A stretch of 45,631 bases of DNA, from NCBI GenBank assembly GCA_944351765.1, contig CALVPR010000007.1:1-45631 (forward strand). Direction: 5' to 3'. Source of the stretch: an uncultured Bacilli bacterium. GTDB lineage: Bacteria; Bacillota_I; Bacilli_A; RF39; UBA660. A model generated the notes under the pieces. It was given only the letters and a program-made list of their open reading frames with translations, was not told the DNA's origin and made no database searches. Below are positions 2,166 through 14,822 of this stretch, piece after piece. The translations under genes were made by a program, and so were the position numbers. The first letter of the stretch is position 1. Each line of letters starts with the position of its first letter.

Positions 2166-3365
2166 TTAATTTTTATCTAATAACCAATCCACTACATTCA
2201 TTTTTTTTATACCATCATAATCAGTCTCTAAATCCATATCCAAAGTTAACAATATTTTAGGATAATAATCCCCTGTTTTTTGTAGGGATTTCAATTCTCT
2301 TTCTAAAATCTTATCATCTCTTACTGTTAATGCAACTTGATAATATTTTAATCCATCTCTATTTTCTGCTACAAAATCAACTTCTAAATCATCTACTTTA
2401 CCAACATATACTTTATATCCCCTTCTAAGTAATTCAAGATATACAATATTTTCTAATATATGCCCCATATCACTATCAGCTTTTTTCCCAAGTAAATAAC
2501 TTCTTAATCCAGGATCTACTACATAATATTTATAATCTCTTACTAATAAATTTTTCCTTTTAACATCAAATCTTTCTGCTTTATATATTAAAAAGCTTTC
2601 TAAAAATGCTGTTATGTAATTTTCTACAGTATGATTACTTGTTAACATACCTTTACTTGTTAATGTATCACTTATTCTCTTTGTTGATATAGGACTTCCT
2701 ATGCTATCAAATATAAACTTTAATATACTTTCAAGTAACATTTTATCATTTATATTATTTCTGGCCATTATGTCTTTATAAACTATTGTAGAAAATATTC
2801 CATCGAAATATTTATCTATATCATTCGGATTAGTTTTTAATATACTTATATTTCCTGGCATTCCACCATTCTTCATATAATTTAAAAATAATTGCACATA
2901 ATTTTTATCATCAAATGCTGTTATATATTCTTTAAATGATAATGGCAACATCTTTATTTCTACATATCTACCCGATAATAATGTTGCAAGTTCACCAGAT
3001 AAAAGATAAGCATTAGAGCCAGTTATATAAACATCTATATTCTTTTTTATATATAATCCATCCACTGCTTTTTGAAAACTATCTACAACTTGGACTTCAT
3101 CTAAAAACACGTAATATTTTTCATTGTCAACTATTTTTTCTTTAACATAATTATATAATTCTTTATAACCTTCAAAAGTATAGTCTGGTGATTCTAAATT
3201 AATTGATATTATATGATCATCTTTTATTCCTTCATTTTTTAAATATTTTATAAATAATTCAAATAAAGTAGATTTACCACATCTTCTTATACCAGTTACT
3301 ACTTTTATCAAATCTTTATCCTTCCATCTTTTTAATTCATCAAGATATTCAGTTCTCTCTATCAT
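2166..3365 (-). CDS. AAA ATPase with DUF4143-type C-terminal domain (paralog 1)
   Basis: The N-terminal AAA_14 P-loop domain has Walker A GIRRCGKST at residues 25-33, Walker B FLDEVQ at 87-92 and a TGSNAYLLSGELA sensor-type segment at about 115-127. A winged-helix-like middle is followed by a C-terminal PD-(D/E)XK-like fold (VDDLEVDF ... YYQVA). In that fold the usual E-x-K is Q-V-A, so nuclease activity is doubtful. The start has a good RBS (AGAGGTGAAAAT). It is closely related to the protein at 5123-6313, with nearly the same N-terminus and sensor motif. Cellular role is unknown for this large, widespread family; nothing in the sequence names a substrate. Two inverted repeats lie in its 5' region. 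Confidence 0.85.
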   Translation of the reverse strand: MIERTEYLDELKRWKDKDLIKVVTGIRRCGKSTLFELFIKYLKNEGIKDDHIISINLESPDYTFEGYKELYNYVKEKIVDNEKYYVFLDEVQVVDSFQKAVDGLYIKKNIDVYITGSNAYLLSGELATLLSGRYVEIKMLPLSFKEYITAFDDKNYVQLFLNYMKNGGMPGNISILKTNPNDIDKYFDGIFSTIVYKDIMARNNINDKMLLESILKFIFDSIGSPISTKRISDTLTSKGMLTSNHTVENYITAFLESFLIYKAERFDVKRKNLLVRDYKYYVVDPGLRSYLLGKKADSDMGHILENIVYLELLRRGYKVYVGKVDDLEVDFVAENRDGLKYYQVALTVRDDKILERELKSLQKTGDYYPKILLTLDMDLETDYDGIKKMNVVDWLLDKN

Positions 3366-3557: not shown

Positions 3558-5090
3558 CTATAAATGATAATACTTAATTGCCCTACTATATTCACCATAA
3601 ACAGTATTTCTGAATTCAGTTCCAAAATTAAATGGATAACTAAAGAATAATCCATCATAAATTAAATAATCTTTAAATGGTAATATTGATGTCTCTACAA
3701 AAGTTGGTAAAGATTCAAAAGAAATTGTTTCATCTATATTACTAGTAATGCCTTTAATCATATATACTTTGTTCATATTCATAATTGCCGTATATTCTTT
3801 AGTAAATGTTACTATTATAAAATTATCTCTAATTCCTTTTTTAAATTCATAAATTATATCTAATTCTTCTTTAGTTAATAAATATGGATTATTTTTACAA
3901 AATTCTTCAATTAAAATATCTTTATATTTCCAAAATTTATTAACTATATCAGTAAGATCAGAAGGATTAATTTTTTTCTGTTTTATAATATTATACTTAG
4001 GTTTTATCTTATATTTATTATTAGTATACTGAAGTAATCTAAAATATAATTTATAAAATAGATTAGCATCTTTTTTACTTAAATGAGCATCTTCTTGTTC
4101 GACATATTTCATTTCTTCTTTTATTTTTTTCTCTTTTAATTCCAATTCTCTTAATTCATTAATAGAAAGTCCATTTAAGGCACCAGATTGCATTTCATCC
4201 ATCGCCAGATCCATTAATTTAAAGAATTTTTTTAAATCATAATCTTTTAATATTGGTATACTTTTAATAGCATTCTTTAAATCTTTTCTATCTAAATTAA
4301 GTAATACATATATTTGTATCTCTTCAATTACGCTATAATGAATAATTGGTAGTTTTATTAGTTCATCATAAAACTTTTTAATAGTTTTATTAGTCATATT
4401 AAAGTCATTATAAAAGAGAGATTTATATTCTCTTAAATCAATATTACCAATAGCGGACTTCCCATATATACTTCTTTGTTCATCTAAGTCTTCTAATATA
4501 CTATAATAACTAATATAATATACTTCATGCACTTCCTTATTATAAAACTCTTTAGTATGAACTCCTACATAATAATTAAATAATTTGTTATTTATTATAT
4601 GATTATATATTTTTTCTTCTTTAACATTTAATATAGCACTACCTATATTAATTAATGGTAATAACAAAGTATTTCCTTGTATCTTACAATAACTAACTAA
4701 AAATTCATTTAAACGATCTTTTTCTTTAGCCTCTTTCCAATTAATATTATTAATTGCTAACTTTAAATTATCATATATTTCTTCATATATAATTATATCA
4801 TCAGGATATTCTAACTCTAAAATAAATTTTTCTCTTAAAGATTTCTTTTCCCATTTATATTTATCACTATTATATTCTAAATTATTATCAAAATATAGCT
4901 TTAAAAATTTAAGTTCTCTTACTGTACATAAATCTATTATATTATAATAGTCTTCATATACTTTATATATTTCCCTAATCATTTTATTTTTACTTATATT
5001 ATCATATTCTTTAATTTTAGAACAAATTCTTATATATATATCATATACATACTCTTTCTTATAATCTTTAATTCTTTCAAAAATCTTCAT
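3558..5090 (-). CDS. Unknown 510-residue protein between two ATPase paralogs
   Basis: I do not recognise this protein. It is 510 residues long, largely helical by composition and rich in Lys, Tyr, Ile and Asn, with no signal peptide, no clear membrane helix and no P-loop. A charged, coiled-coil-like stretch rich in Glu and Lys sits around residues 310-340. The start is supported by AGAGGTAG nine bases upstream. It sits between two close AAA/DUF4143 paralogs on the same strand, 32 bp from one stop and 192 bp from the other start, so co-occurrence with these ATPases could be tested. A function cannot be assigned. Confidence 0.7.
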   Translation of the reverse strand: MKIFERIKDYKKEYVYDIYIRICSKIKEYDNISKNKMIREIYKVYEDYYNIIDLCTVRELKFLKLYFDNNLEYNSDKYKWEKKSLREKFILELEYPDDIIIYEEIYDNLKLAINNINWKEAKEKDRLNEFLVSYCKIQGNTLLLPLINIGSAILNVKEEKIYNHIINNKLFNYYVGVHTKEFYNKEVHEVYYISYYSILEDLDEQRSIYGKSAIGNIDLREYKSLFYNDFNMTNKTIKKFYDELIKLPIIHYSVIEEIQIYVLLNLDRKDLKNAIKSIPILKDYDLKKFFKLMDLAMDEMQSGALNGLSINELRELELKEKKIKEEMKYVEQEDAHLSKKDANLFYKLYFRLLQYTNNKYKIKPKYNIIKQKKINPSDLTDIVNKFWKYKDILIEEFCKNNPYLLTKEELDIIYEFKKGIRDNFIIVTFTKEYTAIMNMNKVYMIKGITSNIDETISFESLPTFVETSILPFKDYLIYDGLFFSYPFNFGTEFRNTVYGEYSRAIKYYHL

Positions 5091-5122: not shown

Positions 5123-6313
5123 TTATTTATCTAGTAACCAATCTAATACATTTATTTGTTTTATACCATTATGAGAAGTATATGGCGTATTATCCATAGT
5201 TAATAAATATTTAGGATTATGATCATTGATACTCTCTAAACTATTTAATTCTCTATTTAATGTCTTTTCGTCTCTTACAGTATATGCTACTTGATAGTAT
5301 TCTGTACCCTTTTCATTTATACAAATAAAGTCTACTTCCTTATCATCCACTTTACCTATATATACTTCATATCCCCTTCTTTTTAATTCTAAATAAACAA
5401 TATTTTCAAGAATATGCCCTTCATCAGCTTTCTTACTACCAAGTAAATAATAACGAAGTCCTATATCTGATAAATAATATTTAACACCGCTTGTTAAATA
5501 TTGTTTTCCCTTTATATCATATCTACTTACTTTATATAAAACGAAAGCATCTACTAAAGCATTTAAATAACTTTCTACTGTAGGAACTGATATTTTTTTA
5601 CCAGCACTAGTTAAAGTATTGGCAATATTTGTACTAGAACATACATTTCCTACTATATCAAACATATATTTTATTACACTATCAAAGATTCCCATATCAG
5701 TTATATTTTTTCTTGTACTAATATCTTTAACCAATATAGATGTATATATACCTTCTAGGTAAGTTTTTATATCTTTAGTAGAGTTCAAACTCAAAGTATA
5801 AGGAAAAGAACTTTTAGTTATATAATCTATATATTTCCTAGACAAATCATTATCTCCAACATAAGATATATATTCCTTAAATGATAAAGGTAACATTTTT
5901 ATTTCTACATATCTACCTGATAAAAATGTAGCAAGTTCTCCCGATAATAAATAAGCATTAGACCCAGTTATATATAAATCTACATTCTTCTTTATATATA
6001 AACTATCGCATGCCTTTTCAAAACCATCTACTCTTTGAACTTCATCTAAAAAAACATAATTTTTTTTATTTGGATTTAATTTTTCTTTAATATAATTATA
6101 TAAATCTTTATAATTTTCTATAAAATCATAGTCAGCATCTTCTAAATTAATACGTATTATTTGATCATCTTCCACACCATTTTTCAACAAATATTCTATA
6201 TATAAATCAAACAAAGTTGATTTACCACATCTTCTTATTCCTGTAACCACTTTTATTAAATCTTTATCTTTAAAACTTATTAATTCTTCTAAATATTCCG
6301 GTCTATTTATCAT
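5123..6313 (-). CDS. AAA ATPase with DUF4143-type C-terminal domain (paralog 2)
   Basis: The architecture is the same as the 2166-3365 protein: Walker A GIRRCGKST near the N-terminus, Walker B FLDEVQ, the TGSNAYLLSGELATFLSG sensor segment, and a C-terminal VDDKEVDF ... YYQVAYTV segment where the nuclease-type E-x-K is again Q-V-A. The ATG at 6313 is preferred because GAGGAGTGGTGAA precedes it with good spacing. An upstream in-frame ATG at 6343 lies between the promoter elements and the RBS and is unlikely to be used. The resulting protein is 396 residues. A strong promoter lies directly upstream. The function is unknown. Confidence 0.85.
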   Translation of the reverse strand: MINRPEYLEELISFKDKDLIKVVTGIRRCGKSTLFDLYIEYLLKNGVEDDQIIRINLEDADYDFIENYKDLYNYIKEKLNPNKKNYVFLDEVQRVDGFEKACDSLYIKKNVDLYITGSNAYLLSGELATFLSGRYVEIKMLPLSFKEYISYVGDNDLSRKYIDYITKSSFPYTLSLNSTKDIKTYLEGIYTSILVKDISTRKNITDMGIFDSVIKYMFDIVGNVCSSTNIANTLTSAGKKISVPTVESYLNALVDAFVLYKVSRYDIKGKQYLTSGVKYYLSDIGLRYYLLGSKKADEGHILENIVYLELKRRGYEVYIGKVDDKEVDFICINEKGTEYYQVAYTVRDEKTLNRELNSLESINDHNPKYLLTMDNTPYTSHNGIKQINVLDWLLDK

Positions 6314-6333
6314 TTTCACCACTCCTCGTATAA

Positions 6334-6362
6334 ATTTTATCATACAACTTATTATACGTCAA
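6334..6362 (-). promoter_or_regulatory. Predicted sigma-A promoter of ATPase paralog 2
   Basis: On the minus strand TTGACG and TAAAAT are separated by exactly 17 bp. Transcription would begin near 6327, leaving a short leader carrying GAGGAG before the ATG at 6313. This also argues against the longer start at 6343. Confidence 0.65.
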
Positions 6363-6383
6363 TTTGTAAAATGTATTTTATAT

Positions 6384-6428
6384 TTATTATAACTATTAAT
6401 GCTAGAATAATAGCTTTTATAACTAATA
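6384..6428 (-). repeat. Direct repeat, left copy: remnant of an RT 3' end
   Basis: This 45-bp segment matches 7833-7877 with two differences, same orientation. Read on the minus strand it encodes ISYKSYYSSINSYNK, and both differences are synonymous Ser codons. Weaker matching continues to about 6442 with a 2-bp deletion that breaks the frame. It is therefore a degraded copy of the end of the reverse transcriptase described at 7826-8230, now on the other side of an ATPase gene. Confidence 0.8.
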
Positions 6429-6458
6429 AACTATTGCTACATTTTAAATTCCTTTAAA

Positions 6459-7721
6459 CTAATTTTTTAAATTCCCTATTGAAACAACATATACTCCATC
6501 TTCACGTACATACGATAATCCAGCCCCACTTAAGACAAGTAAAAATGAAGGCTCACCACTTTTTTTAACATCAACTTTTTCTTTAAATTTTTTTAAATTT
6601 GTAGCAGCTTCTTCCACTTGCTTTGCACCTAATTTTACTTCAACAGCTCCCCATTTACCATCTTCACATCTTAATATAAAATCTATTTCAAAATCTTTAT
6701 TATCTCTATAATAAAATAATTCAGCCCCCAAAGAATCAGCATATATTTTTAAATCCCTATAACACATATTTTCAAATATAAATCCTGTAAAATTTAAATC
6801 ATTTATTAAATCTTCTTTCTTTAATCCCAAAGATGCAATTACGATAGAAGGATCTACTAATTCTATTTTAGGATTAGTTCTTAATTGTATTGATGATCTT
6901 AAATTTAAATTTGTAGCAGGAACATATTCTAATACAAACAGTTTTTCTAATGTAGTTAAATAATCATCTACTGTTGGTCTAGATATTTCTTCTTTAAAAA
7001 TAGTTGATATGTCATTTATTATTGTTTTTTTATTCGTTGATGTAGAAACATTTCTACTTACGCTTTTTAATAAAGACTCCATCTTTATTTTATCTCTTTC
7101 TACACCATCTACTGTTCTAATTTCTTCATTAATTAAACTTTGAACATATTCTTTAGATACTTTAAATTTATTATCGCCACTTATATTTAATGATTCCGGC
7201 CATCCACCTCTTACCATAACATTTATAATATCTTCTAATTCAAGATTAGATACACCAGATACTTCTTTACCATCAATAATATCTTTTAAAGAAACTAATC
7301 CATTAGAATCACCTGATTCATATAATGACATAGTTCTCATAAGTAATTTAGAAATTCTTCCAGTTCCTGTATGCATAATTCCATTTTCTACTGGTTTTGC
7401 TGATCCTGTCAATATATATTGCCCTTTTTCCCCAGTACGGTCAACATCAGTTCTAATAGAATCCCATATAACAGGATACATTTGCCATTCATCAAATAAT
7501 CTTGGCTTTTCACCTTCTAAAAATAACGATGGTTTAGTTTCACTAATATTATCGTATTGAATTTTTTTATCTGGATCCTGTAACTCTATTACGCTCTTAC
7601 TAAACTGTTTAGCAGTAGTTGACTTTCCACACCATTTAGGCCCTTCTATTACAACAGCTCCCATATATTCTAACTTATTTTTTAAAATACTATCTACAAT
7701 TCTAGGTAAATACTTTTTCAT
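6459..7721 (-). CDS. Divergent AAA ATPase with DUF4143-type nuclease-like domain
   Basis: This is a 420-residue P-loop protein of the same superfamily as its neighbours but of another branch. Walker A reads GPKWCGKSTTA near residue 26, the Walker B region is RLFDEWQ, and the sensor segment is ILTGSAKP. The C-terminal domain keeps an intact nuclease-type core, FEIDFILR followed by AVEVKLG (D, then E-x-K), unlike the Q-V-A/T of the three other ATPases here. The start has TAGGAG upstream. The gene is bracketed by direct repeats derived from a reverse transcriptase 3' end (6384-6428 and 7833-7877), which suggests it moved or was duplicated as a unit. Its role is unknown. Confidence 0.85.
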   Translation of the reverse strand: MKKYLPRIVDSILKNKLEYMGAVVIEGPKWCGKSTTAKQFSKSVIELQDPDKKIQYDNISETKPSLFLEGEKPRLFDEWQMYPVIWDSIRTDVDRTGEKGQYILTGSAKPVENGIMHTGTGRISKLLMRTMSLYESGDSNGLVSLKDIIDGKEVSGVSNLELEDIINVMVRGGWPESLNISGDNKFKVSKEYVQSLINEEIRTVDGVERDKIKMESLLKSVSRNVSTSTNKKTIINDISTIFKEEISRPTVDDYLTTLEKLFVLEYVPATNLNLRSSIQLRTNPKIELVDPSIVIASLGLKKEDLINDLNFTGFIFENMCYRDLKIYADSLGAELFYYRDNKDFEIDFILRCEDGKWGAVEVKLGAKQVEEAATNLKKFKEKVDVKKSGEPSFLLVLSGAGLSYVREDGVYVVSIGNLKN

Positions 7722-7825: not shown

Positions 7826-8230
7826 TTAAGTTTTATTATAACTATTAATACTAGAATAATAACTTTTATAACTAATATAACCATTACTATATAAATAATC
7901 CTTTTTCTTAATATTTCTTTTTATTCTCTTTCTTTTATCACTAGTAATATTAACTATAGTTTTATTATTAATTAATCTATACCTACTACCTAAAAATATA
8001 AAACCATGTTTTATATTAACTATCATACTCTTCTTTTTATTTAACTTTAATTTATATTCTTTATCTAATTTATCTTCTATAACTTTATATACATATTTTA
8101 AATACTCTTTGTCATGATGTATTAATATAAAATCATCTACATATCTAATATAATGCTTAATATGTAAATTATTAATTATATAATGGTCTAACTTATATAA
8201 ATAAAATATATTTATTCTAATAGAATAAGT
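7826..8230 (-). pseudogene. 5'-truncated reverse transcriptase (palm end and C-terminus only)
   Basis: An open frame of 134 codons without an early start encodes the second half of a reverse transcriptase. It contains YKLDHYI, then IRYVDDFILI with the catalytic YVDD at 8132-8143, then a Lys-rich thumb region, GFIFLGSRYRL, KRKRIKRNIKK and a final YISYKSYY segment. This order (YxDD, FLG-x-R/Y, basic helix, Y-x-x-Y tail) fits DGR-like or other group-II-related bacterial RTs. Fingers and the first palm motifs are missing: a TAA closes the frame at 8231-8233 and an oppositely oriented XRE gene starts at 8276. An internal ATG at 8026 gives only 66 residues. It lies 0.5 kb downstream of a protein with a DGR-like variable region. 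Confidence 0.85.
7833..7877 (-). repeat. Direct repeat, right copy: end of the RT remnant
   Basis: This is the partner of 6384-6428 (43 of 45 bases identical). It covers the last codons of the truncated reverse transcriptase. The two copies flank the ATPase gene at 6459-7721. Confidence 0.8.
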
Positions 8231-8263
8231 TTATTTTTTATTTATTAAATTTATGTAGAATAA
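8212..8263. promoter_or_regulatory. Palindrome and half site upstream of the XRE gene
   Basis: TTATTCTA, one central base, and TAGAATAA form a 17-bp palindrome at 8212-8228. A repeat of the half TAGAATAA lies at 8256-8263, 12 bp before the regulator's ATG. A regulator gene reading away from such sites suggests autorepression. The palindrome also overlaps the broken end of the RT remnant. Confidence 0.5.
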
Positions 8264-8275
8264 CCATGTGATAAC

Positions 8276-8581
8276 ATGTATAATAATTTAATAAAAAGAA
8301 GAATAGAATTAGGAATAAAGAGAAATGATATGGCTAGAATACTAGGGTATAGTTTGTCTCATTACTCAAACATTGAAAATGGGATAAAAGCATTACATAT
8401 AAGAGAATTATATAAACTATCTTATATATTAAATGTTGATGATATGTATATTACAGGTTTAATAGATGAACCTATACCATTAAATAAGTATAAAAGAGAA
8501 TGTATTAAAAAACATTATAATTTAGACGATAATGCTATTAAAAAACTATATGGAAAAGATGTATATGATATCACAAAATAA
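8276..8581 (+). CDS. Small XRE/Cro-type helix-turn-helix regulator
   Basis: The protein has 101 residues. A helix-turn-helix domain covers about residues 3-60: LIKRRIELGIKRNDMARILGY, then SLSHYSNIENG as recognition helix, then LYKLSYILNVDD. The C-terminal 40 residues are charged, with no known effector domain. It is the only plus-strand gene in the first 25 kb. No good Shine-Dalgarno precedes the ATG, so the transcript may be nearly leaderless. It stands where the first half of the reverse transcriptase would be, and palindromic TAGAATAA sites precede it. It may control itself and the neighbouring minus-strand genes. Confidence 0.8.
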   Translation: MYNNLIKRRIELGIKRNDMARILGYSLSHYSNIENGIKALHIRELYKLSYILNVDDMYITGLIDEPIPLNKYKRECIKKHYNLDDNAIKKLYGKDVYDITK

Positions 8582-8630: not shown

Positions 8631-8642
8631 CCACAAGGCTTA

Positions 8643-8706
8643 CCTAGAGAAACATAAATGTTTCCCTAGGATGAGGAATAGAAGACTTACGCCTTCTATA
8701 TTCCTC
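8643..8706. other. Two tandem hairpins just after the variable region
   Basis: Hairpin one, 8673-8706, pairs gaggaatagaag with cttctatattcctc (12-bp stem, 2-nt bulge, 8-nt loop). It lies 14 bp past the stop codon of the surface protein. Hairpin two, 8643-8670, pairs cctagagaaacat with atgtttccctagg (13 bp, one mismatch, 2-nt loop) and has no T-run on either strand. The first could serve as a plus-strand terminator because TTTTTT follows it. Both also fit the place where DGR targets carry a structure needed for homing. Confidence 0.55.
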
Positions 8707-8720
8707 TTTTTTGTTTATTG

Positions 8721-10055
8721 TTAATTTAAAGTAAACGGATTTCCAAAAGTCCCATCTCCACCAGTAATTTCTACTGTTGATGCTAGATAAAGGACTGGGG
8801 AAGCGGAGTAGTTGGAGTTGTTCGCGCTGAAGCTGTAAACGACACCTGTCGTGTTCACATAAAAGACGAGATTCGAGAGACTGGAGAGCGGAGTAATGGT
8901 CCACTGGTATAAACTAGAATTATATAAATAATCATTATTTTTACAATCACTATAACTGGAACTATCCCAACTAAATAATTCTTTTGCTAAACAAGATGCT
9001 CTATTTGTGATTGTTCCACCACTTGTGGCATATCCATAGTCTGATAGATACATTAATCCTATTTTACCTACCCAATATGTCGGACGGCCACTATATACTG
9101 TTGTTCCTCTTTCATAACCATAAAAGTGACTAGCAAGTCCATCAGATGAACTTGCATAGGTTGCGGTTCCACCTAGATTCCAATAAGTGTCTCCTATAAG
9201 GCTTTGAGATATAGAATCCAAACTATTATAATAGTCTCCATTCAAGTAAGTTTGTAATGAAGCAGATGTCCAGTTATTTGTATTAGCGCTATCCCATGCC
9301 ATTTTACCTAACGACTCATTTCTTATTATTTTAAGTCTTTTTTCTAATTGACCATTCTCACTAGACTTTACATCAAATACTCCGATTATTCTCCATAATT
9401 CATTATTAAATGATACATAGTTATTAGGATCTGCTCCCATATATCTTACATTACCATCAGGGTCATCATTATTCATTGTAGTGGGATTACTTGCGAGTAA
9501 TGATTCTATATAATCTGCCCCAGTTACATACTCACTTCCTACCCCATCAGTTACTATCTTGGCACTAAAACTCTTCCCTATTTCTGTATTTGGTGTATCT
9601 ATACTTAACCATATTCTAACTGACATAGTTACTGAATCACTAGGGTTTAATGTTAAATCACTTGCTATTAATCCATTACTTAAACTAGATAAAGTAACAG
9701 GACTATTATCATCTAATTTTACTTTTATATAAGCAGGATTTATTTGATTACTAGTGGTAGTAGACAATAATTTTAAATCAAATGTATATGTTAAATTACC
9801 TGTGTTAGTTACTTTAAAAGTATACGGTGTTAATGCACTACCTTCTTCATCTGTCATAGGTAGAGTATTACTTAATGTTAAAGCTGTACCTTCTTCTACT
9901 GTTACATCAAGTATTCCTGAAGTATAACTTTCGGTATTATCTAATGTATTTACTTTCATAAATAATGCATAAGTTGTTGATAACATTATTGATAATACTA
10001 ATAATATTGATAATACTGTAATTATTGCTTTTTTGTTTGTAAATATCTTTTTCAT
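8721..10055 (-). CDS. SipW/TasA-type secreted protein with DGR-like variable C-terminus
   Basis: The ATG at 10055 (444 residues) is chosen over one six bases upstream, because AGGA lies six bases before it. A SipW-type signal segment (lysines, hydrophobic run, then TTYALF) leads into a CalY/TasA-like beta domain (GILDVTVEEG; FKVTNTGNLTYTFDL) to about residue 175. A second domain opens with YVSFNNELWRIIGVF and ends in PVLYLASTVEITGGDG. This resembles lectin-like ligand-binding domains that retroelements diversify. Codons 390-419 are mostly NNC and GC-rich, unlike the rest of the gene (see 8799-8888). A -35/-10 pair lies upstream, and a reverse transcriptase remnant downstream. The secretion call is firm, the DGR target call likely; the ligand is unknown. 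Confidence 0.8.
   Translation of the reverse strand: MKKIFTNKKAIITVLSILLVLSIMLSTTYALFMKVNTLDNTESYTSGILDVTVEEGTALTLSNTLPMTDEEGSALTPYTFKVTNTGNLTYTFDLKLLSTTTSNQINPAYIKVKLDDNSPVTLSSLSNGLIASDLTLNPSDSVTMSVRIWLSIDTPNTEIGKSFSAKIVTDGVGSEYVTGADYIESLLASNPTTMNNDDPDGNVRYMGADPNNYVSFNNELWRIIGVFDVKSSENGQLEKRLKIIRNESLGKMAWDSANTNNWTSASLQTYLNGDYYNSLDSISQSLIGDTYWNLGGTATYASSSDGLASHFYGYERGTTVYSGRPTYWVGKIGLMYLSDYGYATSGGTITNRASCLAKELFSWDSSSYSDCKNNDYLYNSSLYQWTITPLSSLSNLVFYVNTTGVVYSFSANNSNYSASPVLYLASTVEITGGDGTFGNPFTLN
8799..8888 (-). other. Candidate DGR variable region (VR)
   Basis: Thirty consecutive codons contain 45 G/C of 90 bases, while the flanking gene and the window are about half that. Eighteen of the 30 codons end in C as NNC (CTC, TCC, GTC, AAC, TAC, AGC, TTC). 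These are the products expected when AAC codons of a template repeat are randomised at their adenines. The residues are mainly Ser, Asn, Leu, Val, Tyr, Phe and Ala. Both flanks (NSSLYQW before, PVLYL after) return to A/T-ending codons. No matching template repeat is visible in the window. Confidence 0.7.
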
Positions 10056-10085
10056 ATACATTCCTACTTTCTATTCTCTATTAAT

Positions 10086-11035: not shown

Positions 11036-11929
11036 TCACTCTCTAAAATCTATCTGCTTTGAATCATAATTAATATTATTTTCTAATGATTCAAGTCCTT
11101 TTATATTTTTATTATTTTTTAAAATTTTTATTTGTTCTTTAGCAGTTTCATTTAATATAGTTAATCTATCTTTTTGAGATATTTTACTTTTAATTAATTG
11201 TGCATTTATATTTTCAAGATTATTTAAAATTAATAAATGAAGTATATCAGTATAATCTCTAATATTTCCTTTTTCTGCAAGAATTGGATTATTATCTCTC
11301 CATTCTTTTGCAGTCATTCCAAACAATGCAACATTTAATACATCTGCTTCTTCAGCATATACAAAATTCTTTTGCTTTTCTGTTAAATTCGGTATAATAT
11401 TATTTTTTATAGCATCTGTATGTATTAAATAATTAGCTTTTGCTAACATTCGATTAGCATGCCATTCTAAATTTTGTTGATATGCCTCATTTTGTTTTAA
11501 TCTCTCAAATTCTTTTATCAGGTACATTTTAAATTCTGGTGAAAGCCAACTTGCAAATTCAAATGCAATATCAGGATGTGCATATGTTCCTTTACTATAT
11601 TTACCACTGCTTGGTATAATACCAATTGCATTAAATTCTTTTTTCCATCTATTTGGTGTCATAGTAAATCTGTTATATGGCGCTTCATCAATTTTAATTC
11701 TGCGTGATTCCACAGAATTAAAATTTTCATTATTTAGTTCTTCCCATAACGAATAAAAGGCAAAAGAATTTTTATTTGACATCCAATTTCTAATAACACC
11801 AGACGGATCATTAGCATTTGCATATTTTGCTAAATCAGTTATAGAAATATAATCTACATTCCCTACTCGCATAACTCCAATTTTATTATTAACTACATTA
11901 ATTTCTGTCTTTATTACTTCTTTATTCAC
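11036..11929 (-). CDS. KilA-N domain DNA-binding protein
   Basis: The KilA-N domain, a DNA-binding module common in phages and large DNA viruses but also found in bacterial accessory regions, covers about residues 10-135. It runs YISITDLAKYANANDPSG, IRNWMSNKNSFAFYSLWEEL, then KGTYAHPDIAFEFASWLSPEFKMYL. The remaining 160 residues are mostly helical. GTG at 11929 is preferred since AGAGGG lies eight bases before it; an earlier GTG at 11938 abuts the RBS. The stop is TGA, overlapping the holA start area. The regulatory target is unknown. It suggests phage-derived content within this inserted region. Confidence 0.8.
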   Translation of the reverse strand: MNKEVIKTEINVVNNKIGVMRVGNVDYISITDLAKYANANDPSGVIRNWMSNKNSFAFYSLWEELNNENFNSVESRRIKIDEAPYNRFTMTPNRWKKEFNAIGIIPSSGKYSKGTYAHPDIAFEFASWLSPEFKMYLIKEFERLKQNEAYQQNLEWHANRMLAKANYLIHTDAIKNNIIPNLTEKQKNFVYAEEADVLNVALFGMTAKEWRDNNPILAEKGNIRDYTDILHLLILNNLENINAQLIKSKISQKDRLTILNETAKEQIKILKNNKNIKGLESLENNINYDSKQIDFRE

Positions 11930-13566: not shown

Positions 13567-14775
13567 TTATAGTATATCTTTGTTTAATAAGAAATCTATT
13601 AAATTTAAATGAATAATACCATTTCGTGATAAATCAACTTTATCAAGAGAAATAATATATTTAGGATAATTATCTTCAATTGACTTAAATGCTCCAAATT
13701 CTCTTTCAATAGTATTATCATTACCTTTCATTTCATAAGTTACTTGAATATATTTAATATTACCATCTTTTTTAGCTAAAAAATCTATTTCGCCATTTTT
13801 CGTTTTACCTATATATACTTCATAATTTCTATTTATTAATTCATTATAAACTATATTTTCTAAAACAACATAACTTTTAAATTCAGGATTATTATTTTTT
13901 ATTTGTGCTATTCCTAAATCAGTAGCATAATACTTATTTAATGTCTTTAATACACCTTTACCAGAAATATCATATCTATATACTTTTTTTAATATTAATG
14001 CTTTACATAAAGCATCAATATAGTTATATAATGTTTCATTTGATATTTTTTTATTTTCTTTATCTAAATATTTTACAATACTATCAGCAGAAAATTCACG
14101 ACCAGTAGTTTCAATTAAATATTGTAATATCATATCAAATAATACTGTATCTTTTAAATTAAGTCTCTTTACAACATCTCTTAAAATAATTGAATCATAT
14201 ACACTATGAAGATAATTTTTTATATCTATCTCATTTATAAATTCACATCTATTAGGAAGTCCACCCCATTTAGCATAATCCCAAAAAGTCTCTAAATCTT
14301 TTCCATCTTTATTGATTAGTAAAACATATTCTTTATAAGATAATGGATTAATATTAAATAAAACATATCTTCCTGATAAGACTGATGATAATTCATCTGA
14401 TAACATTTTACTATTTGATCCAGTTAAAAAGATACTTATATTTTTTATAGAAGCCCTAAGTGAATTAACTACTTTTTCAAAATTATCAACATTTTGTATT
14501 TCATCTAAAAATAAATAGTATATTTTTTCATCCTTAATTTTATCCTTTACATATTTATTAAGTTTTCTATAATCTAATAATTCTTCAAATTCAATGAATT
14601 CAAAATTAATAAATATTACATGTTCATCATCTATTTTTTTCTTTTCTTTTAGTTCTTCAATTATTTGGTTTAAAATAACTGATTTACCACATCTTCTTAT
14701 TCCTACTAATATTTTTATTAAATCGGAATCATAAAATCCTCTTATTTTAGATAAATAGTCTTCTCTTAATAACAT
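13567..14775 (-). CDS. AAA ATPase with DUF4143-type C-terminal domain (paralog 3)
   Basis: This is a 402-residue relative of the proteins at 2166-3365 and 5123-6313 but more divergent. It has Walker A GIRRCGKSVIL near residue 25, Walker B LFLDEIQ, and the sensor segment LTGSNSKMLSDELSSVLSG. The C-terminus has NGEIDFLAKKDG followed by YIQVTYE, so the nuclease-type E-x-K is Q-V-T. The ATG at 14775 follows AGAGGTGAT; an earlier in-frame ATG at 14802 lies in the promoter. A consensus-like promoter and an 11-bp inverted repeat precede it. The family's role is unknown. Confidence 0.85.
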   Translation of the reverse strand: MLLREDYLSKIRGFYDSDLIKILVGIRRCGKSVILNQIIEELKEKKKIDDEHVIFINFEFIEFEELLDYRKLNKYVKDKIKDEKIYYLFLDEIQNVDNFEKVVNSLRASIKNISIFLTGSNSKMLSDELSSVLSGRYVLFNINPLSYKEYVLLINKDGKDLETFWDYAKWGGLPNRCEFINEIDIKNYLHSVYDSIILRDVVKRLNLKDTVLFDMILQYLIETTGREFSADSIVKYLDKENKKISNETLYNYIDALCKALILKKVYRYDISGKGVLKTLNKYYATDLGIAQIKNNNPEFKSYVVLENIVYNELINRNYEVYIGKTKNGEIDFLAKKDGNIKYIQVTYEMKGNDNTIEREFGAFKSIEDNYPKYIISLDKVDLSRNGIIHLNLIDFLLNKDIL

Positions 14776-14793
14776 AGTAATCACCTCTATTAC

Positions 14794-14822
14794 ATTATAC
14801 ATTATTTGATAATAATTGTAAA
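14794..14822 (-). promoter_or_regulatory. Predicted sigma-A promoter of ATPase paralog 3
   Basis: On the minus strand TTTACA, 17 bp and TATAAT, with the RBS AGAGGTGA close after. Its -35 touches the arm of the hairpin at 14820-14849. Confidence 0.65.

Follow-up and report, generated by a model that had tools for sequence, protein, structure and literature searches.

A reverse transcriptase stump beside a variable gene as the probable remnant of a multi-target DGR in an uncultured Bacilli bacterium

The window, a stretch of 45,631 nucleotides, is contig C7 of a 1.29-Mb MAG of an uncultured gut Bacilli bacterium (64 contigs, 92.7% complete) and carries, next to a variable surface-protein gene, a stump of the reverse transcriptase (RT) of a diversity-generating retroelement (DGR). 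The stump is very probably the rest of a multi-target DGR that lost its template repeat (TR), its accessory genes and the front of its RT in a deletion of ~2.28 kb between copies of a 15-bp repeat, which would leave three variable repeats (VRs) frozen in the genome. In the DGR family, TR RNA is copied by error-prone reverse transcription with Avd, and a downstream hairpin aids retrohoming. Adenine-specific VR variation on a common backbone, remnants that are syntenic and orthologous with an intact DGR (L101), and stem-loops downstream of the VR mark the locus as a degenerate DGR.

The RT remnant, the deletion junction and the XRE gene

The stop-to-stop frame at 7826-8230 on the minus strand has 134 codons, and within it the C-terminal remnant of a DGR RT occupies 7826-8208 (-), starting at codon ~214 of a ~342-codon gene. 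RT homology begins at ~8208; the initial ~7 codons of the frame (8209-8230) are intergenic sequence from the XRE side, and no RT sequence lies upstream. After YVDD (8132-8143), the remnant continues with IFLGSRYR and a basic tail. Profiles from PHROGs (phrog_1423 RT, E 1.6e-23), Pfam (RVT_1, positions 145-203 of 205, E 1.7e-6, slightly below the cut-off) and NCBIfam (TIGR04416, group II RT, positions 194-315, 48 bits against a cut-off of 300) all match over the C-terminal RT part alone, placing the frame in RT families and not in a non-RT family. Aligned with residues 214-341 of the intact 342-aa RT of L101, the stump is 83% identical over 128 residues. The profiles and this alignment bear out the initial annotation, which had read the frame as the second half of an RT with YVDD and an FLG/basic tail and without fingers. 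Rather than a full-length RT with motif 4, (I/V/L)GxxxSQ, and YxDD, the frame holds only the part after motif 4. Because the first ATG, GTG or TTG lies at 8026, past YVDD, with no usable start ahead of that motif, the stump cannot be translated as a YVDD protein; with only ~127 C-terminal residues left, the claim that the local element cannot make an active RT also stands.

When parts of L101 were searched against the window by tblastn, the RT C-terminus was the sole match, and the RT N-terminus, Avd and the MutS-like genes were absent elsewhere in the window; blastn with the L101 stretch deleted here gave AT-rich chance matches and nothing more. No TR for this element was found in the window or in the assembly, and Avd, present in L101 and in two further DGRs of this genome (contigs C18 and C32), is absent from the window. 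A second copy of the RT 3' tail (60 bp, 90% identical to 7832-7892) lies at 6383-6442 (-), and the AAA_14/DUF4143 ATPase gene at 6459-7721 is flanked by the two tail copies. ATPase genes of this type are found repeatedly beside DGR RTs or targets in the genus: the window has them at 2166-3365, 5123-6343 and 6459-7721 (Pfam-checked) and at 13567-14802 (by sequence resemblance), and others were recognized by sequence resemblance at L039:4096-5364, L041:4478-5737 and L066:3510-4778. Near the C18 DGR, a 300-bp perfect direct duplication (L039:10652-10951 and 11418-11717, 766 bp apart) yields two copies, one short and one long, of an AAA-ATPase-like gene.

The intact ortholog L101 (CALVRZ010000003.1), 12 kb of sequence from a second uncultured Bacilli MAG, was obtained in a scan of 84,980 genomes. 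It has the order target with VR, stem-loops, divergent XRE, MutS-like gene, small ORF, TR, second MutS-like gene, Avd and 342-aa RT. L101 resembles the window in gene order around the target and XRE and in its orthologous XRE, RT, TR backbone and stem-loops, and differs in retaining 2.28 kb that the window has lost. The window can be aligned to the XRE side of L101 as far as 8194 and to its RT side from 8209 down, and the overlap is exactly the 15-bp direct repeat TATTTTATTTATATA, whose lone remaining copy forms the deletion junction at 8194-8208. L101 has TATTTTATTTATATA twice, at 3721 and 5999, 2,278 bp apart. A shared stretch as long as the junction repeat appeared in 2 of 500 shuffles, and both sides of the junction have diverged from L101 as one native sequence would. 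The overlap and the two copies in L101 point to one deletion between the repeats, probably a single event, which would have taken both MutS-like genes, the small ORF, the TR, Avd and RT codons 1 to ~213. The ancestral locus would thus have had the order of L101, including an operator beside the XRE gene, with one repeat in the XRE/MutS-like intergenic region and the other in the RT gene past motif 4, and recombination or slippage between them would have lost ~2.28 kb in one step.

The XRE gene (8276-8581 (+), 101 aa, 90% identical to the L101 XRE) had been taken to fill the place of the missing RT half, a reading that the comparison overturns. It is a native DGR neighbor: L101 and the paralogous DGR of C32 also have an XRE at this place, divergent from the MutS-like/Avd/RT operon, and in C32 it lies between target/TR and the operon and is directed away from the latter, as in the window; XRE insertion as the cause of RT loss was ruled out on these grounds. 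The native promoter/operator region at 8209-8275 holds a palindrome, TTATTCTATTAGAATAA, conserved in the window and common to the intact DGRs L101, C32 and G006:C7. The deletion spared both the XRE gene and this palindrome, and XRE did not displace the RT. Judged from the arrangement, the regulator would repress the MutS-like/Avd/RT operon via the palindrome, with TTATTCTATTNGAATAA as the putative XRE binding sequence. XREs divergent from such an operon were also seen at L040:5033-5347, L101:3348-3653, L069:2029-2620, L070:6723-7310 and L103:52-357, and the operator-like palindromes of these lineage DGRs vary with XRE type, the XRE of the lineage's DGRs being a possible DGR repressor. A limited search of the literature, itself weak evidence, found no paper on an XRE/operator module of DGRs.

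The stump is open across 125 codons, and comparison with the three nearest relatives gives a dN/dS of 0.16-0.20. In the phylogenetic tree the end branch of the stump is not longer than theirs, and with 100/99 support the stump falls in a group of RTs that also contains the one from the complete Avd/TR/VR locus L101. The open frame, the dN/dS values, the ordinary end branch and the lack of non-adenine-type differences among the three VRs suggest that the RT was lost recently, or else that an unseen copy is still working.

One template behind three variable genes

The target gene (8721-10061 (-), 446 aa) encodes an N-terminal membrane/signal segment and a C-terminal DUF6273-like domain, slightly below the Pfam cut-off, which carries the VR at 8797-8888 (-). 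For a C-type-lectin fold, the predicted model was too poor (pLDDT 55) and was dropped, and no PDB match was found at E <= 0.001. The VR has paralogs in two remote genes of the same genome, on contigs C11 and C13. Across the three VRs, 29 of 97 aligned columns vary, 25 of them including an A, and all variable columns except one fall at codon positions 1 or 2, while the flanks vary at every codon position (variable at positions 1+2: 28/69 in the VR vs 14/103 in the flanks, P = 1e-4). The non-adenine bases are identical in all three although the flanks have diverged, with zero non-adenine-type differences. This adenine-type variation on a backbone shared with C11 and C13 confirms the neighbor as a DGR variable gene, and the pattern indicates that one DGR once served all three genes. 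As read from the alignments, it is what mutagenic retrohoming into three genes from a single template leaves behind: the element would formerly have copied TR RNA with adenine errors and rewritten, both in cis and in trans, the VRs of the window, C11 and C13, and after the deletion rewriting would have ceased and left all three frozen.

The template adenines were inferred from the three VRs and not from a local TR. The resulting template, GAACTCCAGTAACTCGAATAACGTCTTTAATGTGAACACGACAGGTAACGTTAACAACAACAACGCGAACAACTCCAACAACTCCGCTTCC, is rich in AAC codons, and 59/59 of its non-A bases fit the three VRs, partly by construction, the template having been derived from them. The start of the L101 TR, GAACTCCAGTAACTCCAACAACGTCTTTAACGTGAACA, closely resembles the independently inferred GAACTCCAGTAACTCGAATAACGTCTTTAATGTGAACA, and this resemblance is the strongest check on the predicted template. 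In a TR-VR matrix the inferred template fits the window, C11 and C13 targets alone, and a search with it across the 92.7%-complete assembly returned only these three VRs. The TR of G003:C28 was rejected as the template: it has a similar motif (81% over 62 nt), but only 30/51 non-A bases match. Target-family genes at L043, L044, L045 and L046 (contigs C37, C24, C35 and C16) fit none of the TRs examined, and those on C16 and C37 are interrupted by stops; these four may be older orphaned targets.

Directly downstream of the variable gene lies a tandem pair of stem-loops (8636-8705 (-)), which follows all three targets (C7, C11 and C13) as well as the target of L101. The window stem-loops have a z of -5.7 and show compensatory differences relative to L101, and within the genome the core of the first is confined to the three targets.

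Alternative sources of the truncation and of the variation

The initial annotation had left a choice between a dead DGR with a frozen variable gene and an intact RT or template serving the target in trans, and had proposed looking for a full-length RT in the genome. Two such RTs exist, on C18 (365 aa) and C32 (367 aa), each of them part of a complete DGR with MutS-like and Avd genes (MutS-like: MutS_I in Pfam; Avd: phrog_3206), a TR, and targets with VRs that depart from their own TR mainly at adenines; for the C32 TR, a remote target on C52 (L047) fits as well. These two complete DGRs with adenine-mutated VRs in the same 1.3-Mb genome were noted at L039:6876-6949 and L040:4758-4860. That either RT diversifies the window target in trans with its own TR is nevertheless very improbable, since the window VR matches only 28/58 non-A bases of the C18 TR and 30/65 of the C32 TR, against 59/59 for the inferred template, while the two TRs fit their own targets at 53/58 and 62/65, respectively. 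With such a mismatch, retrohoming from them would replace the VR backbone, and the TR-VR matrix rules out both TRs for this target. The search for intact RTs thus succeeded without yielding a matching TR; the dead DGR with its frozen gene is supported, and the reading in trans meets mismatched C18 and C32 TRs and an inferred TR that hits these three VRs alone.

It is unlikely, though worth keeping in mind, that the target is still being diversified, with the local element broken, by an intact cognate RT and TR located in the missing 7% of the assembly or in other cells of the population. A MAG of 64 contigs at 92.7% completeness leaves room for a cognate copy that is intact but absent from the assembly, and the contig may come from a single strain within a mixed population; degenerate DGR loci in Thiohalocapsa had intact structural variants in long reads (PMC10907252). 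VRs that are identical at all non-adenine bases between diverged flanks, with no non-adenine-type differences, would also fit continuing rewriting by an unseen copy. Against this, the inferred TR retrieves the three VRs and nothing else, searches of the assembly with Avd and RT profiles pick up nothing beyond the stump and the copies on C18 and C32, and recent loss accounts for the same data without unseen parts. We consider it quite improbable that the truncation is an assembly artefact over an intact locus. DGR regions do break assemblies of this kind (contig G003:C14 starts within an RT), but the junction here is a clean 15-bp-repeat deletion well inside a contig of 45 kb, assembly k-mers are usually longer than 15 bp, both junction sides show the divergence from L101 expected of one native sequence, and the element's TR, Avd and RT N-terminus did not turn up anywhere else in the assembly. 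The match to TIGR04416 might suggest an origin in a group II intron maturase or in some other class of RT, to which we give a negligible probability: the score is far below the cut-off, Rfam found no group II intron RNA in the window, and both the grouping of the stump with RTs including that of L101 and the orthologous intact DGR itself refute it.

RT breakage in relatives and decay of DGRs

Relatives show independent, repeated breakage of the orthologous RT. In G002 and G004 it is cut by an IS at different codons, leaving 129 and 275 codons, respectively; the IS elements, with the terminal repeat GGACAGTTTT, lie at L064:5121-6608 and L063:6490-7360 in these two sister species, and such an IS was discarded as the cause at the window, whose junction has none. 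More distant relatives have RT frameshifts (L123/L124 and L136), some of which may be sequencing errors. In L109, L127 and L158 the RT is split exactly at motif 4 (GLPIG^NMTSQ) by ~3.4-kb cassettes of three tyrosine recombinases in either orientation, which suggests that recombinase-trio elements target this conserved site. These recombinase-in-trio (Tn554-like) cassettes lie at L109:1932-5291, L127:2534-5977 and L158:2578-5977, and no paper with both a recombinase trio and a DGR RT was found in the literature searched. Insertion of such a cassette was ruled out for the window, where a deletion between direct repeats has its junction a few codons further downstream.

DGR decay is already known, and the window is an unusually well-resolved further case. 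The DiGReF survey (PMC3521204, Fig. 4) reported inactivated DGRs in Ruminococcus gnavus, Acaryochloris marina and Bacteroides sp., which resemble the window in that the RT was recently inactivated and VR mutations are still all at adenines. There, TR/VR pairs are intact and the damage is a stop codon, frameshift or insertion, whereas here one direct-repeat deletion took the TR, Avd, the MutS-like genes and the RT N-terminus together. The degenerate loci of Thiohalocapsa PB-PSB1 belong to another lineage, in which reads revealed the intact variants. The Treponema denticola DGR has remote targets, with one TR for several scattered genes, and isolates lacking core components, their genomes having targets without RT or TR (PMC4891356); in the window, by comparison, the RT stump, XRE gene and deletion junction are still visible.

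It is a doubtful, more speculative extension that loss of the writer is adaptive and recurrent, the RT being broken independently in several genomes of the lineage with their targets retained, so that a useful receptor variant is locked in while cells with the intact cassette persist, and that the DGR operon would have a dedicated on/off switch in XRE and its operator. What the locus offers is the death of a DGR resolved to the base pair, in an element that had probably rewritten three scattered genes beforehand. It also serves as a warning that half an RT beside a variable gene is no evidence for a mobile or alternative RT. With intact, freshly dead and long-orphaned targets together in a small genome and its relatives, the lineage is well suited to asking whether the switch-off of hypermutation is selected.
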